A stretch of 25,739 bases of DNA from the IMG/VR virus record IMGVR_UViG_3300046010_004944, positions 1 to 25,739 of that record. One strand, written 5' to 3'. This document shows, in pieces, positions 4,700-23,098 of this stretch. The translations under genes and the position numbers were made by a program. The stretch comes from a virus. The notes under the pieces are model-generated. The model was not told the origin of the DNA, made no database searches, and worked only from the letters and a program-made list of their open reading frames with translations. Position 1 is the first letter of the stretch; every line of letters starts with the position of its first letter.

Positions 4700-5903
4700 A
4701 TATTTACCTTTAATTGAAAATAATACACGTTACTTTATTATTACTGGAGGGCGTGGCTCTGCTAAATCTTTTAGTGCTTCATTACTTTTTACCAAGTTAG
4801 GAATAGAAGAACCTCAACGAATACTGTTTACTCGTTATACAATGGTTGCAGCTCATTTATCTATTATACCTGAGTTTGTAGAAAAGATTAAGTTATACAA
4901 TGCTGACAACCTATTTAAGATTAATAAAACTGAGATAGTAAATGAAACTATTGGAAGTTCAATTATCTTTAAAGGAATTAAAACAAGTTCAGGAGACCAA
5001 ACAGCTAATCTTAAATCATTACAAGGTGTTACCACATGGGTACTAGACGAAGCTGAAGAGTTAAACGATGAGAGTATATTTGATAAGATAGATTTCAGTA
5101 TTAGAACTAAAGGAATACAGAATAGGGTAGTTTTAATTATGAATCCTAGCACTAAAGAGCATTGGATTTACAAACGTTTCTTTGAAGCTAAAGGTGTTCA
5201 AGAGGGCTTTAACGGCATTAAAGATGATACTACTTATATTCACACTACTTACTTAGATAACATTAATAACCTGGATGAATCGTTTTTAAAACAAGTTGAA
5301 CAAGTTAAACTAACACAGCCTGAAAAGTTTAAGCATATTATTTTAGGCGGTTGGTTAAATAAAGCTGAAGGTGTTATATTTACCAACTGGCGAATAGGTG
5401 AATTTGATAATACCATACCTAATGTATTCGGTCAAGATTATGGATTTAGTATTGACCCTAGTGTTTTAGTTAATGTGGCTATTGATAAGTCTAAACGTAT
5501 CATTTACGTTAATGAGTGCTTTTGTAAACCTTTTATGACTACTACTGATATTGAGATAGAAAATAAACGTTATGCTGGAGATAAGTTAATCATCGGAGAT
5601 AATTCAGAAGGTCGTTTAATTGAAGAGATAAGACGTAAAGGTGTTAACATTAAAGAAACAGTTAAGATAGCTGTTAGTTCAGGTATTGCTTTGATGCAAG
5701 ATTATGAGATAGTAGTTACTGAAACGAGCCTAAATATAATTAAAGAATTAAATAACTATTCATGGTCTGATAAGAAGTCAGGCACTCCAATTGATTTATA
5801 CAACCATTGTATTGATGCTATACGTTATAGCGTTGTTTATCAATTAGATAATCCAAATATAAAAAGAATGTCACCTCGTGGTTTTGGAGTTAAAAGAAAT
5901 TAG
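4680..5903 (+). CDS. terL: Terminase large subunit (packaging ATPase-nuclease)
   Basis: A 407-residue packaging motor. The ATPase domain has Walker A GGRGSAKS (23-30), Walker B VLDEAEE (D123, E124) and the coupling motif LIMNPST (N155). The C-terminal RNase H-like nuclease domain shows GQDYGFSIDP (D253), IIGDNSE (D307) and CIDAIRY (D379), the expected three acidic metal ligands. The length is typical. It overlaps terS at the front. The next promoter's -33 box lies in its last codons, so the tail module gets its own transcription start. In most phages the portal gene follows; here the portal is about 16 kb away. Confidence 0.95.
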   Translation: MIQLNRKYLPLIENNTRYFIITGGRGSAKSFSASLLFTKLGIEEPQRILFTRYTMVAAHLSIIPEFVEKIKLYNADNLFKINKTEIVNETIGSSIIFKGIKTSSGDQTANLKSLQGVTTWVLDEAEELNDESIFDKIDFSIRTKGIQNRVVLIMNPSTKEHWIYKRFFEAKGVQEGFNGIKDDTTYIHTTYLDNINNLDESFLKQVEQVKLTQPEKFKHIILGGWLNKAEGVIFTNWRIGEFDNTIPNVFGQDYGFSIDPSVLVNVAIDKSKRIIYVNECFCKPFMTTTDIEIENKRYAGDKLIIGDNSEGRLIEEIRRKGVNIKETVKIAVSSGIALMQDYEIVVTETSLNIIKELNNYSWSDKKSGTPIDLYNHCIDAIRYSVVYQLDNPNIKRMSPRGFGVKRN

Positions 5904-5911
5904 TATATTTG
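5883..5911 (+). promoter_or_regulatory. Tail-module promoter abutting the chaperone start
   Basis: TTTG (5883-5886), 17 bases, then TATATTTG (5904-5911): both elements match the Bacteroidota consensus exactly. The box ends five bases before the ATG at 5917, so the transcript should be leaderless or nearly so. This also favours 5917 over the upstream in-frame ATG at 5878, which would lie ahead of the transcription start. Confidence 0.7.
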
Positions 5912-5916
5912 TAACT

Positions 5917-6495
5917 ATGCAACAAGTAAAAGTAAACAATGAAATATATGAAGTTCCAATTAGTTGGAGTGAATTAAACTACTGGAAGGCTTGCCAGGTA
6001 TTAAATTTAGTAGGAGATAAAGGCAAACAACTTGCTTTACTTTCTAAAATACCTATGCAATTAATTGATATTATGCCTAATAATCAAATACAAATATTCT
6101 TTGATTTAATATCATTTACTGAAAACTTAGAAGTATTTGAAGGGCAAGAAGTATTGGATGAGTATAAAGATTTTGACTTTGGAAGTATTGAATACGGTAA
6201 AGCTGAAGCTATTAAAAAGATAATGGCTAAAGATTTATCAGGCTTTGAGGTTGCAGCCGAATCAATTAAGTTTCTTTATAACAAAGATATTAATGAGATG
6301 CCATTTTTAGAAGTGATAGGTACAGCTAATTTTTTTTTGAGCAAATTACTAGCTTCTATAATAGTTTCTCCCAACTTGGAGAAGGTGAAACGAGCAATGA
6401 ACAAATCCAAGCTGGAATTGAAAGACTATACAGTTTTGGTAGCTTTGCAACATACATTGAACTCGCAAGGAGTGGAGCAATCGGAAACACAATAG
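5917..6495 (+). CDS. Tail assembly chaperone, zero-frame product (gpG-like)
   Basis: A 192-residue protein starting MQQVKVNNEIYEVPISWSEL, which resembles tail-chaperone-like proteins of Bacteroidota siphophages (beta-rich start with a VP.SW motif, then helical with LSKIPMQLIDIMP). The in-frame ATG at 5878 was rejected because a consensus promoter lies between the two. After T9 at 6330-6338 the zero frame continues for about 52 codons with CCC, TTG, CTG and TCC codons that are rare in neighbouring genes, while the -1 frame reads as a well-formed chaperone extension. The long and short products would together coat and fold the tape measure protein during tail assembly. Confidence 0.75.
   Translation: MQQVKVNNEIYEVPISWSELNYWKACQVLNLVGDKGKQLALLSKIPMQLIDIMPNNQIQIFFDLISFTENLEVFEGQEVLDEYKDFDFGSIEYGKAEAIKKIMAKDLSGFEVAAESIKFLYNKDINEMPFLEVIGTANFFLSKLLASIIVSPNLEKVKRAMNKSKLELKDYTVLVALQHTLNSQGVEQSETQ
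6330..6339 (+). other. Candidate -1 frameshift site, T9 then G
   Basis: Zero-frame codons are AAT TTT TTT TTG AGC. Heptamers T TTT TTT (6330-6336) and T TTT TTG (6333-6339) both allow -1 slippage, and a run of nine also allows polymerase slippage. A 7-bp hairpin (6365-6371 with 6378-6384) lies 25 bases downstream, farther than usual for a stimulator. The -1 frame is open from 6330 to its stop at 6603-6605. Confidence 0.7.
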
Positions 6496-16826: not shown

Positions 16827-17600
16827 ATGATAAACAGAGTTAACTCAGCTTTAAGAAACCCAATAGCAAATAGATACGAATTAAAACAACTTGTATCTGA
16901 GTTATGTAATTATAACATGAATCTTAATTGTGGTCAATGTATTAATGAAGCTGTTATATTATTAGGCAATTGGTTAAAGTTACAAGGTCAAGAAAATGAT
17001 TATAAGTCAAGAGCTTTCAAAGGTGAATATACATTAAAACAAATTAATCTATTTGTTCAGGTTTATAATTGTGGAGATGATGAACGTCAATACGAATTAG
17101 ATACTTGTTTAAAAAATAACAAAGCGTTAAATATTAATGGAGTGCCTTACTTTAATGTAATTGAGATTAAAGAACGTTTAACATTTAAAGAGTTATTTAA
17201 ACTTACTGAGCAATATCCTGATAGAATTAACATAATTGCTAATTCAGATATTTACTTTAATGAAACTATATTAAAATGCAGATGGTTGCAAGGTAAAGAA
17301 TGTTTTGCTTTATCTCGCTGGGATATTAACGGCAATACTGCTACTTTATTTGACCGTAAAGATTCTCAAGATGTTTGGATATTTAATGGGACTGTAACCG
17401 AAGATATAGGTAATTATTATTTAGGTGTTCCTGGATGCGACAATAAATTGATGTGGGAATTAAAATCAGTAGGTTATCAAGTATCAAACCCTTCTAAAAC
17501 AATACACAGTTTGCATTTACATAATTCTAATTATAGAACTTATGACCACAAAACAGAGAGAGTTCCACAGCCTTATCACTTTATAAAACCACATTATTAA
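16827..17600 (+). CDS. Glycosyltransferase-like protein with N-terminal CxxC extension
   Basis: A 257-residue protein. Residues about 73-257 resemble a GT-A-like family: FVQVYNCGDDERQYELDTCL (76-95), INIIANSDIYFNETI (134-148) with D141 as the probable metal or sugar-nucleotide ligand, CFALSRWD, then DRKDSQDVWIF (176-186), GVPGCDNK (200-207) and NPSKTIHSLHLHNS. The first 65 residues are helical with NCGQC (C35, C38) and look like a small phage protein fused in front. It opens the glycan cassette. The donor sugar and target are not readable; the virion or host surface glycans are candidates. Confidence 0.75.
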   Translation: MINRVNSALRNPIANRYELKQLVSELCNYNMNLNCGQCINEAVILLGNWLKLQGQENDYKSRAFKGEYTLKQINLFVQVYNCGDDERQYELDTCLKNNKALNINGVPYFNVIEIKERLTFKELFKLTEQYPDRINIIANSDIYFNETILKCRWLQGKECFALSRWDINGNTATLFDRKDSQDVWIFNGTVTEDIGNYYLGVPGCDNKLMWELKSVGYQVSNPSKTIHSLHLHNSNYRTYDHKTERVPQPYHFIKPHY

Positions 17601-17601
17601 T

Positions 17602-17835
17602 ATGTATAAAATAGATAAAAATATAAAACCCCCAACTGCGTTACTTTATCCGTTTAAAGATATGGAAGTGGGAGATAGTTTTTTTATAGAATCTAAAGAT
17701 AAAAAAGAAGCTCAGTTATTTAGATTAAAAGCAATGGGAGCAGCAAGGCAATATGTTTATAAATCTCAATCAAAAGATTTAAAATATGTTACTAGGTATG
17801 TAGAAAACGGAATAAGAATTTGGAGAATTAAATAA
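17602..17835 (+). CDS. Small phage protein, DUF7303-like
   Basis: A 77-residue basic protein with YPFKDMEVGDSFFIESKDK and, later, YVTRYVENGIRIWRIK. The PF..M..GDSF phrase plus a terminal TR...G.RIWR is a common small-protein pattern in Bacteroidota phages, and I associate it with DUF7303. It lies one base after the first glycosyltransferase and three bases before the next, so it belongs to the cassette operon. The biochemical role is unknown; the strand-rich C-terminus could bind nucleic acid. Confidence 0.65.
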   Translation: MYKIDKNIKPPTALLYPFKDMEVGDSFFIESKDKKEAQLFRLKAMGAARQYVYKSQSKDLKYVTRYVENGIRIWRIK

Positions 17836-17838
17836 ATT

Positions 17839-18765
17839 ATGAAAATACTACATATAGGTTTATGCGTACAACCTAAACCATACAACGGATTCCAACAAGC
17901 ATTTACTGATGTAGTTGGTGAGGAAAATTATAGAGAGATTAGTACAGGAGAAGAAAACTTAAATGCTAAAGTATTAATTTTAGCCAATGAGTTTAAACCT
18001 AATATTGTATTTATGCAAATACAAGCTCCAAATATAATTTTACATAACGTATGTCAAAGATTAAAAGACATGGGTTGTTTTATAATTAATTGGACTGGAG
18101 ATAAACGTCACGAAGTGCCACAATGGATGATAGATTTAGCACCTTATGTATCTTTAACTTCATTTAGTAATATGGATGACGTAAATACCATGCGTTCATT
18201 AGGCTTTAAATCTGACTATTTAGAGATAGGTTACAATGAAAGTATTTATACTCCAGTTGGCGAAGCATTAAATATGCCTGAAATAATATTTATGGGTAAC
18301 AATTATGGACGTGGTTATTTTCCTATGAGTGGTTTTCGTATTGATATGGTAGATTTTTTACGTCAAGAATACGGTAATAGATTTGGTGTTTACGGTTCAG
18401 GGTGGGCTTATGGTAACGGTAACTTTAATCATAGCCAATTAGAAGAAGCTAAAGCGTATAGAGGTGCTAAAATTGCTATAAATTGTAGCCATTTTGATAG
18501 CTTAAATTACAATAGTGATAGGTTATTAAGGATTTTAGGTAGTGGTACTATGTGTTTGAGTTATGATCATTTAGGAATGAAGGAAACTTATAACCATGAT
18601 AAGGTTAGTTATTTTAAAAGATTTGATGAGTTACAGTATAAAATAGAATTAGCTTTAGAATATCCTGAAGATTCAAAACTTATGGCATTAAATGGATATA
18701 ATTTTGTAAAAAATACATTCACTTTTAAAAATCAAGTCGAAAATATTATTAACTTAGCAAAATGA
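17839..18765 (+). CDS. CgeB-family glycosyltransferase (GT-B fold)
   Basis: A 308-residue protein starting MKILHIGLCVQPKPYNGFQQ with a Rossmann-like N-terminal domain (NIVFMQIQAPN, FIINWTGDKRHEVPQW). The C-terminal domain has IIFMGNNYGRG (149-159), FGVYGSGW (182-189), YRGAKIAINCS (207-217), SDRLLRILGSGTMCLS (226-241) and a closing GYNFVKNTFTF. These match glycosyltransferase family 1-type proteins of the CgeB/spore-maturation group. It would transfer a sugar from a nucleotide donor. It overlaps the next small gene by four bases (ATGA). Confidence 0.85.
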   Translation: MKILHIGLCVQPKPYNGFQQAFTDVVGEENYREISTGEENLNAKVLILANEFKPNIVFMQIQAPNIILHNVCQRLKDMGCFIINWTGDKRHEVPQWMIDLAPYVSLTSFSNMDDVNTMRSLGFKSDYLEIGYNESIYTPVGEALNMPEIIFMGNNYGRGYFPMSGFRIDMVDFLRQEYGNRFGVYGSGWAYGNGNFNHSQLEEAKAYRGAKIAINCSHFDSLNYNSDRLLRILGSGTMCLSYDHLGMKETYNHDKVSYFKRFDELQYKIELALEYPEDSKLMALNGYNFVKNTFTFKNQVENIINLAK

Positions 18766-18974
18766 TAGATTGGAATAATAGACTAACAACTCAGTTTGAT
18801 TTTGTAAAAGAAAAAATACAAGACATCAAGCATAATAAATCAAATGGTAATTTAACTATTAATTACTATTATTTTGATAAAGAATATAAACTAGAAGTTA
18901 CTGGACAAATTACAGATGATTTTTTAACGGTTGATTATATAGCATATAGTCATATAATAAATGGATATTTATGA
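18762..18974 (+). CDS. Hypothetical 70-residue protein
   Basis: Coupled by ATGA-type four-base overlaps on both sides, between two glycosyltransferase genes, so very likely translated. The sequence is a charged helix (FDFVKEKIQDIKHNK) followed by beta strands (LTINYYYFDKEYKLEVTG). No signal peptide, membrane segment or known motif. It may be a helper of its neighbours; no function can be given. Confidence 0.7.
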   Translation: MIDWNNRLTTQFDFVKEKIQDIKHNKSNGNLTINYYYFDKEYKLEVTGQITDDFLTVDYIAYSHIINGYL

Positions 18975-19711
18975 AAGTAATAGGATTATTAACCATACAT
19001 TATGGTAAAGAATATTTAAAAGAATGTTTAACTTCTATAAAAAATCATTGTGAAAAAGTTGTTGTGGCTTATACTGAAAAACCATCTCACGGATTTGGAA
19101 CAACAGAAACTTGCCCTGATAGTAAGTCAGATATTAAATTAATTTGTGAACAAGTATTAGGAGATAAATTAATATGGGATGAATACGATAATTATACAGC
19201 AGAAAATCAACACCGAAGACAAGTTCATAATTACTCGAACGGTTATGATTTAGTTTTAACAATTGATGCGGATGAGGTATTTGAACCTAGTGAGTTAACA
19301 AATGCTTTAGAATACGCTTATAATAATCAACAAAGATATTACGGAATTAAAGGTTATATAAACTTTTGGCGTTCTTTTAATTGGGCTTGTTATGATGGAT
19401 TTAGACCTATTAGAATTGAAAACTTAAACAATTCAAATACACATCAAAATCATGAATGTCCATTAACTATTTATCATTTTAGTACTGCTCAAAGTGAACC
19501 AGTAATGAGATATAAATATAAAATATTCGGTCATGCTTCAGAGATTAAAACTGATTGGTTAGATAGCATACATTATAAATGGACGCCTAAAAATAACTTT
19601 GGAGATTTGCATCCAGTTAGTTATAATTTATGGAATGCTGTACCATACGCAAAACATAATATGCCTGAGTTTTTAAAACAGCATCCTAACTTTAATAAAG
19701 AATTGATATAA
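18971..19711 (+). CDS. Family 2-type glycosyltransferase
   Basis: A 246-residue GT-A-fold enzyme. The N-terminus IGLLTIHYGKEYLKECLTSI is the standard opening of GT2 proteins, HCEKVVVAYTEKPS forms the nucleotide-binding strand, and LTIDADEVFEPSEL carries the DxD metal motif (D99, D101). C-terminal HYKWTPKNNFGD and histidines could belong to the acceptor site. It overlaps the preceding gene by four bases and the next by one (TAATG). It probably adds one sugar in a chain built with the other cassette enzymes. Confidence 0.8.
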   Translation: MKVIGLLTIHYGKEYLKECLTSIKNHCEKVVVAYTEKPSHGFGTTETCPDSKSDIKLICEQVLGDKLIWDEYDNYTAENQHRRQVHNYSNGYDLVLTIDADEVFEPSELTNALEYAYNNQQRYYGIKGYINFWRSFNWACYDGFRPIRIENLNNSNTHQNHECPLTIYHFSTAQSEPVMRYKYKIFGHASEIKTDWLDSIHYKWTPKNNFGDLHPVSYNLWNAVPYAKHNMPEFLKQHPNFNKELI

Positions 19712-20250
19712 TGTTAGCGGTATCATTAATAGAAAATAAACCATTAAGCACTAAAACAGCTTTAGCACACGCTCCATTTTTACCAGATGATGCTATATTA
19801 TATGAAGAACCTCGTTTAAATTCAATACATGAATACAATAAACGATTAACTTCCTTAGAGTTTTGGAATCAGTTTGATGAGGAAAATATATTAATTATAC
19901 AACATGATAGCGTAATTTTAAGAAATGGTATTGAAGATTATTACCAATATGATTTTATAGGCGCACCAATTAAATGGATAGATTTTCCAGCTATGAACGG
20001 TGGCTTTAGTTTAAGACGTAAATCCGCTATGATTAATGTTATTAAAAACTATCATTATAACGGTTTAGAAAATGAAGATTTATATTTTTGTAACGGATTG
20101 AAACAACTTAACGGAAATTTACCTACATTTGAAACTGGTAAAACATTTAGCTGTGAAACTATATTTAATTTAGGCTCTTTAGGTTACCATGCAATAGATA
20201 AATATTTAACAAATGAACAAATAAACCAAATAAAAACACAATATGAATAA
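19711..20250 (+). CDS. DUF5672 glycosyltransferase-like protein
   Basis: A 179-residue protein that matches the DUF5672 pattern along its length: NILIIQHDSVILRNGIEDYY (59-78) with H65 and D66 in the place of the usual Q-D, YDFIGAPIKW (80-89), MNGGFSLRRKSAM (95-107), ENEDLYFCNGL (120-130) and an FSCE segment before the C-terminal helix. DUF5672 proteins are regarded as sugar transferases of GT-A type. It starts within the stop codon of the preceding gene and overlaps the next by eight bases. Confidence 0.8.
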   Translation: MLAVSLIENKPLSTKTALAHAPFLPDDAILYEEPRLNSIHEYNKRLTSLEFWNQFDEENILIIQHDSVILRNGIEDYYQYDFIGAPIKWIDFPAMNGGFSLRRKSAMINVIKNYHYNGLENEDLYFCNGLKQLNGNLPTFETGKTFSCETIFNLGSLGYHAIDKYLTNEQINQIKTQYE

Positions 20251-20458
20251 AGTAATAGCATCATTTATAATATCATTAATAGTAAGTTATTTATTTAACT
20301 CGTATTGCTACAATTCATTTAATCCTCAAAACTTCCCTTTAGGAGCTAAGATTTTACAATGTTTAGGAGTTTTAATTATTTTAGGCATATCATCAATAGT
20401 TAAATCTGAAGTAATAAATGATTTAAAAAATGAAGTAGAAAAACTAAAAAATAAATAA
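20243..20458 (+). CDS. Small two-helix membrane protein
   Basis: A 71-residue protein with two probable membrane segments, about residues 4-18 (VIASFIISLIVSYLF) and 34-52 (GAKILQCLGVLIILGISSI), then a charged helical tail (EVINDLKNEVEKLKNK). The topology would fit a holin, but also a small membrane anchor for the glycan enzymes around it. Since it is embedded between transferase genes and no endolysin is near, the holin call is not supported beyond topology. Confidence 0.65.
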   Translation: MNKVIASFIISLIVSYLFNSYCYNSFNPQNFPLGAKILQCLGVLIILGISSIVKSEVINDLKNEVEKLKNK

Positions 20459-20460
20459 AT

Positions 20461-21030
20461 ATGAGTGAATTAATCAAACAAAATTACAACCTAGCTTGTA
20501 TAACACCATCTGATATTAATGAACATATTGATACGCTATATAATTTAGCTAAAGAATGTAGCCATGTTACAGAGATGGGAGTTAGAAATGTTGTAAGTAC
20601 ATGGGCTTTTATGCTTCGTGATCCTGAAGTATTAATAGGTATTGATTTACATACTAATTTTAATGTAGATAAAGCACTATTAGCCTATCCTAAATGGAAG
20701 TTTATTAAATCAGATACTACTAAAATTAAGATAGAAGAAACTGATTTATTGTTTATCGATACATTACATATCTATTCTCAATTAAAAAAAGAGTTAGTTT
20801 TACATGCAGACAAGGTTAAAAAGTATATTGTATTACATGATACTACTACTTACGGATTTGTAGATGAACCAACTGATTGGCAAACTCCAGAGATTATGGA
20901 AAATTATAAACTTGAAGAAAAAAGAGGGTTACAACCAGCTATAATTGAATTTTTAAATGATAATCCTGAATGGATTATGTTTAAAGAATACACTAACAAC
21001 AATGGATTAACAATTTTAAAAAGAAAATAA
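20461..21030 (+). CDS. SAM-methyltransferase-like / CmcI-like protein
   Basis: A 189-residue Rossmann-like protein. CSHVTEMGVRNVVSTW (33-48) corresponds to methyltransferase motif I (E38, G40), VLIGIDLH (57-64) supplies the acidic ribose-binding position (D62), and LLFIDTLHIYSQLKKEL (96-112) followed by YIVLHDTTTYG (122-132) is the D..H.Y...EL...HD pattern of Methyltransf_24 and cephalosporin-hydroxylase-like (CmcI) proteins. In a sugar cassette it may methylate a glycan, which would cap or diversify it. The fold is fairly clear; the substrate is unknown. Confidence 0.7.
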   Translation: MSELIKQNYNLACITPSDINEHIDTLYNLAKECSHVTEMGVRNVVSTWAFMLRDPEVLIGIDLHTNFNVDKALLAYPKWKFIKSDTTKIKIEETDLLFIDTLHIYSQLKKELVLHADKVKKYIVLHDTTTYGFVDEPTDWQTPEIMENYKLEEKRGLQPAIIEFLNDNPEWIMFKEYTNNNGLTILKRK

Positions 21031-21031
21031 T

Positions 21032-21355
21032 ATGAGCAAATACATTTTAAAACCAGGTTACGAAACTATCATTACTAAATCAGATGATGGACACGAATTA
21101 TTAATTACACCAAATACATTTAACGATTATTTTGGTGACTTAATGATGAAAAATAATCAAGGTCATTTATTAACTATTAGCCAAGACTGGGTTAATAATA
21201 ATAGTACAGAAAAAAAAACATTCACCCAAATTACGGAAAATGTTATTTTATTAACCTCGAATCAAGAAAAGATAGAAGAAAAACAACAGAATCAAACTGT
21301 AAAAGTGCAGGAGTTAAAGTCAAAAGGTGGGAGGCCACGAATAAACAAAATTTAG
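21032..21355 (+). CDS. Hypothetical 107-residue protein, zero-frame product
   Basis: The N-terminal 60 residues (MSKYILKPGYETIITKSDDG, then ELLITPNTFND) look like a small beta domain. After residue 61 the zero frame is low-complexity (EKIEEKQQNQTVKVQELK) and ends SKGGRPRINKI, a basic tail common in small Bacteroidota phage proteins. The last 130 or so bases overlap, in the -1 frame, the beginning of a glycosyltransferase family 25 domain. The nine-A run at 21210-21218 lies at the switch point. Both the short protein and a frameshifted fusion may be made. Confidence 0.6.
   Translation: MSKYILKPGYETIITKSDDGHELLITPNTFNDYFGDLMMKNNQGHLLTISQDWVNNNSTEKKTFTQITENVILLTSNQEKIEEKQQNQTVKVQELKSKGGRPRINKI
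21210..21218 (+). other. Candidate -1 frameshift site, A9
   Basis: Zero-frame codons are GAA AAA AAA ACA, giving the heptamer A AAA AAA (21211-21217), a known efficient -1 slippery pattern. Nine A's also permit polymerase slippage. The -1 frame is closed by stops up to 21204 and open from there to 21828, where it encodes the GT25 domain. Confidence 0.65.
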
Positions 21356-21828
21356 AACATAATGGACGTATTAAAGCTACTGAAATAGCAGCATTAAGAA
21401 GCCATAAAACATTATTAGAACACGCTTATAATTCAGGTTATGAGCGTGTTTTTATTTTAGAAGATGATATAGATTTTTGTGATAACTTTAAACTTAAATT
21501 AGCTAATGCTATGCTTGAACTTCCTGAAGATTGGGATTGCTTACATTTAGCTGGTTATAGCCCATCTGACTGCCTAATTAATTATAGCGGATTATTGTAT
21601 AAATCTATTAAAACATGGGGGGGTTATTCATATATTGTTAATCGTAAAGCAATACCAAAACTAATAGAAGAAATTAGTAAGGAATTAACGCAAGTTGACA
21701 CACATTATACATGGATTATGAAAGATATGAACTGGTTTAAAACTAAAGAAATGCTAGTTTATCACTTGCCAGGCTATTCAGATATTAACGAAGCTCACCG
21801 AGATATTAAGGAATTATATAATAAATAA
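21217..21828 (+). CDS. GT25 (LPS-type) glycosyltransferase, reached by -1 shift
   Basis: In the -1 frame relative to the preceding gene the reading is CYFINLESRKDRR, KSAGVKVKRWEAT, HNGRIKATEIAALRSHKTLL, YERVFILEDDIDFCDNF, ELPEDWDCLHLAG and WGGYSYIVNRKAIPKL: a complete glycosyltransferase family 25 domain, including the EDD catalytic motif. No ATG, GTG or TTG exists in this frame between the stop at 21202-21204 and the ATG at 21511, which would remove the N-terminal third and the EDD motif. A -1 shift at A9 gives a fusion of about 265 residues (62 + 203). Alternatives are a homopolymer miscall, a rare ATT start at 21220, or a decayed gene. Confidence 0.75.
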   Translation, partial: NIHPNYGKCYFINLESRKDRRKTTESNCKSAGVKVKRWEATNKQNLEHNGRIKATEIAALRSHKTLLEHAYNSGYERVFILEDDIDFCDNFKLKLANAMLELPEDWDCLHLAGYSPSDCLINYSGLLYKSIKTWGGYSYIVNRKAIPKLIEEISKELTQVDTHYTWIMKDMNWFKTKEMLVYHLPGYSDINEAHRDIKELYNK

Positions 21829-21865: not shown

Positions 21866-23098
21866 ATGACTAAAAAGAGTACATTTAGAGCTAAAGTTTA
21901 TACATTTTTAAACAGAATTGTTAATATTACTGAGAATAAATCTAAAGGAATTATTAACTATGATTCTGATAATTTATTTCCTCAAAGATTAATAAGAACA
22001 GTTAGTGAAAGTGGAACTGCAACGGCTTGTATAGAAGTATTAAATCAATATATTTACGCTGAAGGATTAGTTAATGAAAAACTAGGTAAATCAAAAGCAA
22101 ACAATAATCAAACGTTTAATGAAGTAATAGCAGAAGCAACAGCCTATGTATCGCTTTTACAAGGTGTAGCGTGGCATGTTAAAAGAGATGGTACTGGTAA
22201 CCCTATTTCAGTTAAATGTATTCCTTACGAGAATATTAGAGTAGCCGATAATGGTAACTATATTTATAACCCTACTTATTCATTAGATTGTAAATTTGAT
22301 ACAACTAAAGATATTGAATACCCTAAATTTAAAGGTGCTAAAGTATCAAATGAGGAATTAAAAGTAATTGCTAGTTATAAAAATAATGATGGAGAAACAT
22401 TAGGAGAGATATTATACCACTTTAATAAAAAACCTGGTCAATACGTTTATTCAATTCCTTCTTATTTTAGTGCTATTTCTGATATTGAAGCGGATGCTGA
22501 ACAAAGTAAGTTTGAATTAGAATCAGTTAATAATGCGTTTTTGCCTGGTGGATTTTTAACTATTGTAGGTGACATAGATGACAAAACAGAAGATGAGAAC
22601 GGTAAAACGGAATTAGATTATTATGTTGATACTTGCGAAGCCTTTACTGGAAACGCTAAAGATAGACAAGGTGAAACTGGACGTAATAAATTAATGCTTT
22701 TATTTGCTAAAACTAAAGAGGAGTTACCAGTATATCAATCTGTAAATACTGGCGAAGTATTTAATGCAGTTGAACAAAGCACTCCGAGAGTAGCAAAAAA
22801 AGTGGCTAGAGCTTTTGGAGTTCCTGACTTCTTAGTTAATCTAGGTGGTTCTGTTGGTTTTTCAACTAACATTATATCAGATAATATTGTGTTATTTAAC
22901 AATAGAGTTAGACCATTACAAAATTTAATTAGTCAATCTTTACAAATGGTATTTCCTGAAAAAGATTTTAAATTAACTCAAAATAATCCTATTAAATATA
23001 TTGAGCCTTTAATTTTATCTAAATTAACAGATAATGAGTTAAGAGCATTAATAGGATATAAACCTAAAACAGATGCCATACCGCCCACTAATAATTAA
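21866..23098 (+). CDS. Portal protein
   Basis: A 410-residue protein with YDSDNLFPQRLIRTVSES near the start, then TATACIEVLNQYIYAEGLVN, a middle stem region (SYFSAISDIEADAEQSKFEL) and a C-terminal RVAKKVARAFGVPDFLVNL followed by NIISDNIVLFNNRVRPLQNL. This order (wing, clip/stem, crown) and the FGVP..L motif are typical of siphovirus portals. It would form the dodecameric DNA channel and dock TerL. It is unusually far from terL and lies after the glycan cassette. It overlaps the next gene by 26 bases. Confidence 0.88.
   Translation: MTKKSTFRAKVYTFLNRIVNITENKSKGIINYDSDNLFPQRLIRTVSESGTATACIEVLNQYIYAEGLVNEKLGKSKANNNQTFNEVIAEATAYVSLLQGVAWHVKRDGTGNPISVKCIPYENIRVADNGNYIYNPTYSLDCKFDTTKDIEYPKFKGAKVSNEELKVIASYKNNDGETLGEILYHFNKKPGQYVYSIPSYFSAISDIEADAEQSKFELESVNNAFLPGGFLTIVGDIDDKTEDENGKTELDYYVDTCEAFTGNAKDRQGETGRNKLMLLFAKTKEELPVYQSVNTGEVFNAVEQSTPRVAKKVARAFGVPDFLVNLGGSVGFSTNIISDNIVLFNNRVRPLQNLISQSLQMVFPEKDFKLTQNNPIKYIEPLILSKLTDNELRALIGYKPKTDAIPPTNN

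Follow-up and report, generated by a model that had tools for sequence, protein, structure and literature searches.

A conserved run of nine A's probably joins a small phage protein to a GT25 glycosyltransferase by frame slippage

In a family of uncultured phages, a run of nine A's kept in diverged viral contigs very probably serves as a site of programmed slippage in the gene that starts at 21032, with two products that have a 57-residue domain in common, one short and ending in a basic tail, the other a GT25 glycosyltransferase fusion of ~265 aa. Coordinates are those of the window, that is, the whole 25,739 nt stretch of DNA analysed (IMG/VR virus record IMGVR_UViG_3300046010_004944), and the locus looks like a real, new example of programmed frame slippage. 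Its elements, all on the + strand, are:

21032..21355, + strand: frame-0 gene of 107 aa (ORF list), with homologues in 26 contigs that have an identical 48-codon extension after the A-run
21202..21204, + strand: TAG that closes the −1 (GT25) frame shortly 5′ of the A-run, read from the sequence
21205..21828, + strand: −1 open frame encoding the GT25 domain (profile matches, dN/dS, fold match), without its own start before 21511
21210..21218, + strand: A9 slippery run (sequence), invariant in 26/26 contigs, with a variable upstream flank
21219..21355, + strand: overlap that behaves as dual-coded, holding the small-protein tail (frame 0) and the first strand and helix of GT25 (frame −1), both frames conserved in all relatives (recoding and pairwise simulation tests)
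21460..21468, + strand: catalytic-type EDD motif of GT25, in frame −1 (from sequence), its residues E86 D87 D88 being invariant alignment columns

The nine A's, the only run of that length in the window, are read as GAA AAA AAA ACA in frame 0, where the 107-aa protein consists of a folded domain (residues 1-57), the residues encoded by the run (60-63) and a disordered tail ending in ...SKGGRPRINKI. A one-base slip on the run would give E-K-K-N instead and lead into the GT25 frame; by a count along the sequence, the predicted fusion would take 62 residues from the small protein and 203 from the −1 frame. The first-pass annotation had placed a complete GT25 domain in the −1 frame right after the run, which the sequence and the Pfam and PHROGs matches confirm, and had found that frame devoid of ATG, GTG or TTG until past the EDD motif, which is also correct, the first such codon being the ATG at 21511.

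By profile, EDD motif and fold, the −1 product is a predicted GT25 glycosyltransferase. Its translation matches Pfam PF01755 (Glyco_transf_25) with E 1.4e-11 and 45.1 bits (cut-off 24) across profile positions 3-190 of 199, and the PHROGs glucosyltransferase family phrog_2835 at 4.7e-17, while the best Foldseek matches of its structural model are Mimivirus R655 and COLGALT1 (E 2.6e-8). The small protein, modelled with AlphaFold2 from 14 sequences, shows a confident domain at about residues 1-57 (pLDDT ~90 over residues 1-50) and disorder beyond 61 (pLDDT <55), and in the GT25 model the first strand starts with residue 12, counted from the beginning of the open frame. Given that one domain ends just before the A-run and the other begins just after it, the nine A's lie in a short linker between the two. 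Searches with the small domain returned no family above chance in Pfam or PHROGs and no significant match in the PDB, its best viral fold match being the uncharacterised A0A6J5QQC0 (E 0.0077).

Relatives were sought with searches that did not fix the length of the A-run. GT25 protein-pattern searches of viral contigs returned 3 and then 25 loci, and querying with the small protein led to these same 25, so that small protein and GT25 always co-occur; a further diverged contig, L104, was reached via its portal gene (its GT25 matches PF01755 at 2.1e-12), and a DNA pattern 3′ of the run and indifferent to run length returned exactly the same 26 contigs. Three lineages are found, the window with L008 and L009 (GT25 identity 72-82%), the L010 group (51-53%) and L104 (55%), the relatives thus reaching down to ~50% GT25 identity. 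No relatives were found in scans of bacterial genome contigs, and those of the portal protein are phages of Bacteroidota.

Conservation of the slippery site and of the frame layout in diverged homologues, a criterion for recoding, is seen throughout: all 26 contigs have exactly nine A's, a GT25 encoded in frame −1 that lacks an ATG, GTG or TTG ahead of its first strand, and exactly 48 frame-0 codons from the first codon of the run (GAA or CAA) to a homologous stop. Such an arrangement, kept in 26/26 contigs, is far beyond chance. The sequence immediately 5′ of the run varies whereas the nine A's do not, even in L017 and L009, where a residue next to the run is replaced (E to Q and T to S, respectively), and the frame-0 protein keeps a basic end, KGGRPRINKI in the window, KRGRQPKxK in most contigs and GKPRTQKA in L104. 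In L008 and L104 a TGA of the −1 frame directly abuts the A-run, so that this frame can be entered only in or after the run. Over the ~243 kb of loci examined, nine A's stand at this site in 24/24, next to 11 other A/T runs of at least nine. The proposal that a conserved frame transition at the run yields a fusion of the small domain and GT25 is therefore supported by the alignment, with the same layout in 26/26 relatives, and none of these contigs has ten A's, an intact single frame or marks of decay, the findings that the first-pass annotation had named as telling against it.

Both frames bear signs of selection, a further criterion for recoding. Downstream of the overlap GT25 is under purifying selection (dN/dS 0.01-0.41). 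Within the overlap, GT25 codons were replaced by synonymous ones at genome usage, which left frame 0 open with a probability of 0.028 in the window, 0.004 in L008, 0.0008 in L009 and 0.018 in L104, and of 0.06-0.28 in the L010 group. Pairwise simulation, in which one sequence was changed into another under GT25 constraint alone, gave a joint probability that frame 0 stays open and is conserved to the same degree; this was 0.00005-0.02 in 10 of 14 pairs and 0.03-0.19 in the other four; these values are not independent, as the lineages share ancestry, and some lineage pairs alone (e.g., L008-L009) are not significant. Differences by codon position are flatter in the overlap (0.295/0.246/0.310) than downstream (0.260/0.170/0.382), and the excess of synonymous-site identity in the overlap is modest. 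Taken together, the recoding, simulation and codon-position results indicate that positions 21219-21355 behave as dual-coding and that the frame-0 tail, too, belongs to a genuine product; selection keeps the unshifted protein as well, for which the openness and identity tests speak in most lineage pairs.

The sequences show the anatomy of the locus, its conservation, selection on both frames and the restriction of entry into the −1 frame to the run or what follows it; that slippage occurs, its ratio and the machine that slips we infer from them, and we propose that the gene at 21032 has two outputs. Most messages would probably be read in frame 0 into the 107-aa protein, a folded domain with a disordered basic tail. 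A fraction of the messages would gain one A by transcriptional slippage on the nine A's, which we think somewhat likelier than not to be the mechanism, or else ribosomes would slip back one base on A_AAA_AAA; either event would give the same ~265-aa protein, made of the 57-residue domain, a linker with ...EKKN... and a complete GT25, for which no alternative start is conserved in these sequences. Through the domain that both products have, the enzyme is presumably directed to the location, or the partner, at which the free short form is found as well, and it is plausible that slippage limits this one enzyme to a fixed fraction. As counterpoints, AAA makes up 83% of the Lys codons (365 of 442) of this AT-rich phage, which together with the conserved E-K-K-T accounts for part of the conservation of the run, and a longer in-frame run, an A11 (Lys-Lys-Lys), is tolerated by relatives in a putative tail-region gene. 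It lies near the start of that gene in L010 (10134) and L011 (9716), is kept in both and may itself be a slippage site. The window also has an in-frame T9 at 6330-6338, inside ORF 5878-6495 and 5′ of a tape-measure-like gene.

The same two products could arise by programmed −1 ribosomal frameshifting, which we judge possible but the less probable route. Every sequence has the heptamer A_AAA_AAA, of the form X_XXY_YYZ, in register (GAA/CAA AAA AAA), and ribosomal sliding on A-tracts is described (PMC4363877). However, in E. coli A_AAA_AAA is a weaker site than A_AAA_AAG (PMC5009743), the window has four further A_AAA_AAA heptamers in frame within ordinary genes, the portal gene among them, without any sign of recoding, and a ribosomal shift leaves the constant length of nine unexplained. 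The folded sequences, moreover, gave no unusual downstream structure (z −1.2 to +1.5) and no conserved RNA stimulator at the run, of which not every natural site has need; no Rfam family was found at the locus, and no Shine-Dalgarno-like element was seen by eye at the usual distance. A homopolymer of about nine or more whose length is conserved among homologues, the criterion for transcriptional slippage taken from PMC1088944, is present in all contigs, and Baranov et al. consider a 9A run of conserved length very likely to be used in this manner (PMC1088944). The run fixed at nine, the want of an evident stimulator, the A7 heptamers in ordinary genes and the weakness of the site thus favour transcriptional over ribosomal slippage; of the −1 shift at the nine A's put forward by the first-pass annotation, the conserved frame transition stands and the ribosomal route is the less favoured.

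Explanations that dispense with programmed slippage fare worse. That GT25 is translated separately, from a non-AUG start immediately 3′ of the run, is improbable: the window and L008 do have an ATT at 21220, but near-cognate codons differ by clade, L009 having TTA there, L104 none and the L010 group an ATC elsewhere, and the sole ATT kept by most clades lies within strand 1 (I-N-L). The ATT at 21220 was accordingly rejected as not conserved, and internal initiation of GT25 appears unlikely. Homopolymer tracts switch surface-glycan genes in bacteria, and the run had also been suggested to be such a phase-variation switch worked by replication slippage, by which phages with A10 would make fused GT25 and phages with A9 would lack it. 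This reading is not supported, and we give it a slightly slimmer chance still, since searches independent of run length found nine A's in every one of the 26 contigs and neither A8 nor A10, and since the frame-0 tail is selected and its stop kept, neither of which a pure switch needs; with no variation in run length between these contigs, a phase-variable gene was rejected as a candidate. A sequencing error or a decaying gene, to which the frameshifted look of the locus alone would point, is excluded by the relatives to the extent that we regard its chance as negligible: a second viral record (L002) has the identical sequence, 25 further contigs show the same layout, and dN/dS is well below 1.

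The frameshift gene stands at the end of a glycosyltransferase cassette (16827-21030) located between head genes and the portal gene, a site from which a role in the virion or in assembly may be hypothesised. Neighbouring genes are:

16827..17600, + strand: 257-aa protein with similarity, over its first ~65 residues, to the N-domain of a Bacteroides-phage pre-portal gene (hhalign pairwise P 0.0026; alignment)
17839..18765, + strand: Glyco_trans_1_2 glycosyltransferase of the cassette (PF13524, E 2e-13)
18971..19711, + strand: cassette glycosyltransferase, GT2-like (PF00535 at E 0.0021, a match that misses the curated cut-off)
19711..20250, + strand: DUF5672 protein of the cassette (PF18922, E 6.2e-29)
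20461..21030, + strand: conserved 189-aa cassette gene directly upstream (ORF list), with a weak, sub-threshold Methyltransf_24 match (Pfam)
21866..23098, + strand: portal protein, directly downstream of GT25 (phrog_11226, E 1.5e-41)

The content of this region varies among relatives. An additional 246-aa gene (MPRPRPRETxxEFIQRCMGD..., with an FDYDGTL motif) that the window lacks lies between head gene and cassette in L010 (412-1152), L017 (997-1737) and L027 (424-1164). L104 has no 189-aa gene directly 5′ of the small protein, and inside its cassette it encodes a 159-aa protein (2042-2521) with a IDIGTYRGFSAFAFGYN motif, methyltransferase-like by eye.

Some Bacteroides and gut phages have one pre-portal protein with a C-x2-C N-domain and a C-domain, ending in RRGRPSSK in one of them. 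The first ~65 residues of the protein at 16827-17600 likewise contain a C-x2-C motif, the remainder being a conserved domain without assignment, and for their hhalign comparison with the pre-portal N-domain 1 of 200 permutations reached the score (outlying value 133). The small domain compared with the pre-portal C-domain gives P 0.19, which is not significant, with 21 of 200 permutations reaching the score, so homology there is suggestive only, and the gene at 16827 as the other half of a split pre-portal gene is a possibility offered as a hypothesis. We may speculate, tentatively and with doubt, that insertion of the cassette cut an ancestral pre-portal structural protein in two, its C-terminal half now being the small domain and its N-terminal half starting the gene at 16827, and that A9 slippage acts in a Gag-Pol-like way to plant few GT domains, in fixed number, on the assembling head or neck. 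If so, virion proteins would be glycosylated on site.

The locus prompts a testable idea, that the phage may tie the amount of an enzyme to a small partner protein. Annotation pipelines would probably call the GT25 enzyme absent or truncated in such genomes, and the A9 site, being natural and kept in diverged phages, could be of use for telling transcriptional slippage from ribosomal shifting. With known GT25 glycosyltransferases (PF01755; the collagen galactosyltransferase COLGALT1, Mimivirus R655) the phage enzyme has in common the Pfam match and the best fold matches, but it is apparently expressed solely as a frameshift fusion, and the literature searched held no precedent for a phage glycosyltransferase made by programmed frame slippage. 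Wang and colleagues are said to have described, in 1999, a Helicobacter pylori alpha-1,2-fucosyltransferase gene whose expression involves a frameshift. Both cases combine a glycosyltransferase with frame slippage, but the H. pylori one is bacterial, its tracts are phase-variable and a single enzyme is divided into two parts, whereas here a phage has an invariant A9, a fusion to a separate domain and a selected frame-0 tail. Retroviral Gag-Pol, by analogy only, also uses a rare −1 shift to join a structural-type domain to an enzyme and to set the ratio, although here the genome is that of a DNA phage and the small domain is a virion protein by hypothesis.

Comparable systems are Thermus thermophilus dnaX, with transcriptional slippage on A9 (PMC1088944), and transcriptional slippage in IS elements, which likewise have nine A's in a coding region and two products with a common N-terminal part; in dnaX these are a standard and a shorter polymerase subunit and in IS elements there is a transposase fusion, whereas here a small phage protein would be joined to a glycosyltransferase, with long dual coding. 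Recoding in phages is known from tail chaperones, lysins and capsid proteins, and the programmed frameshift of the phage A2 major head protein is cited as well (PMC10885494). The frameshifts of tail assembly chaperones and of the A2 head protein also give two products with a common N-terminal part and, like the present gene, are located among structural genes. The present gene differs in being neither a tail chaperone nor a capsid extension: the added part is a predicted enzyme, and no stimulator was seen; the case would extend the known recoding events of phages to an enzyme fusion.
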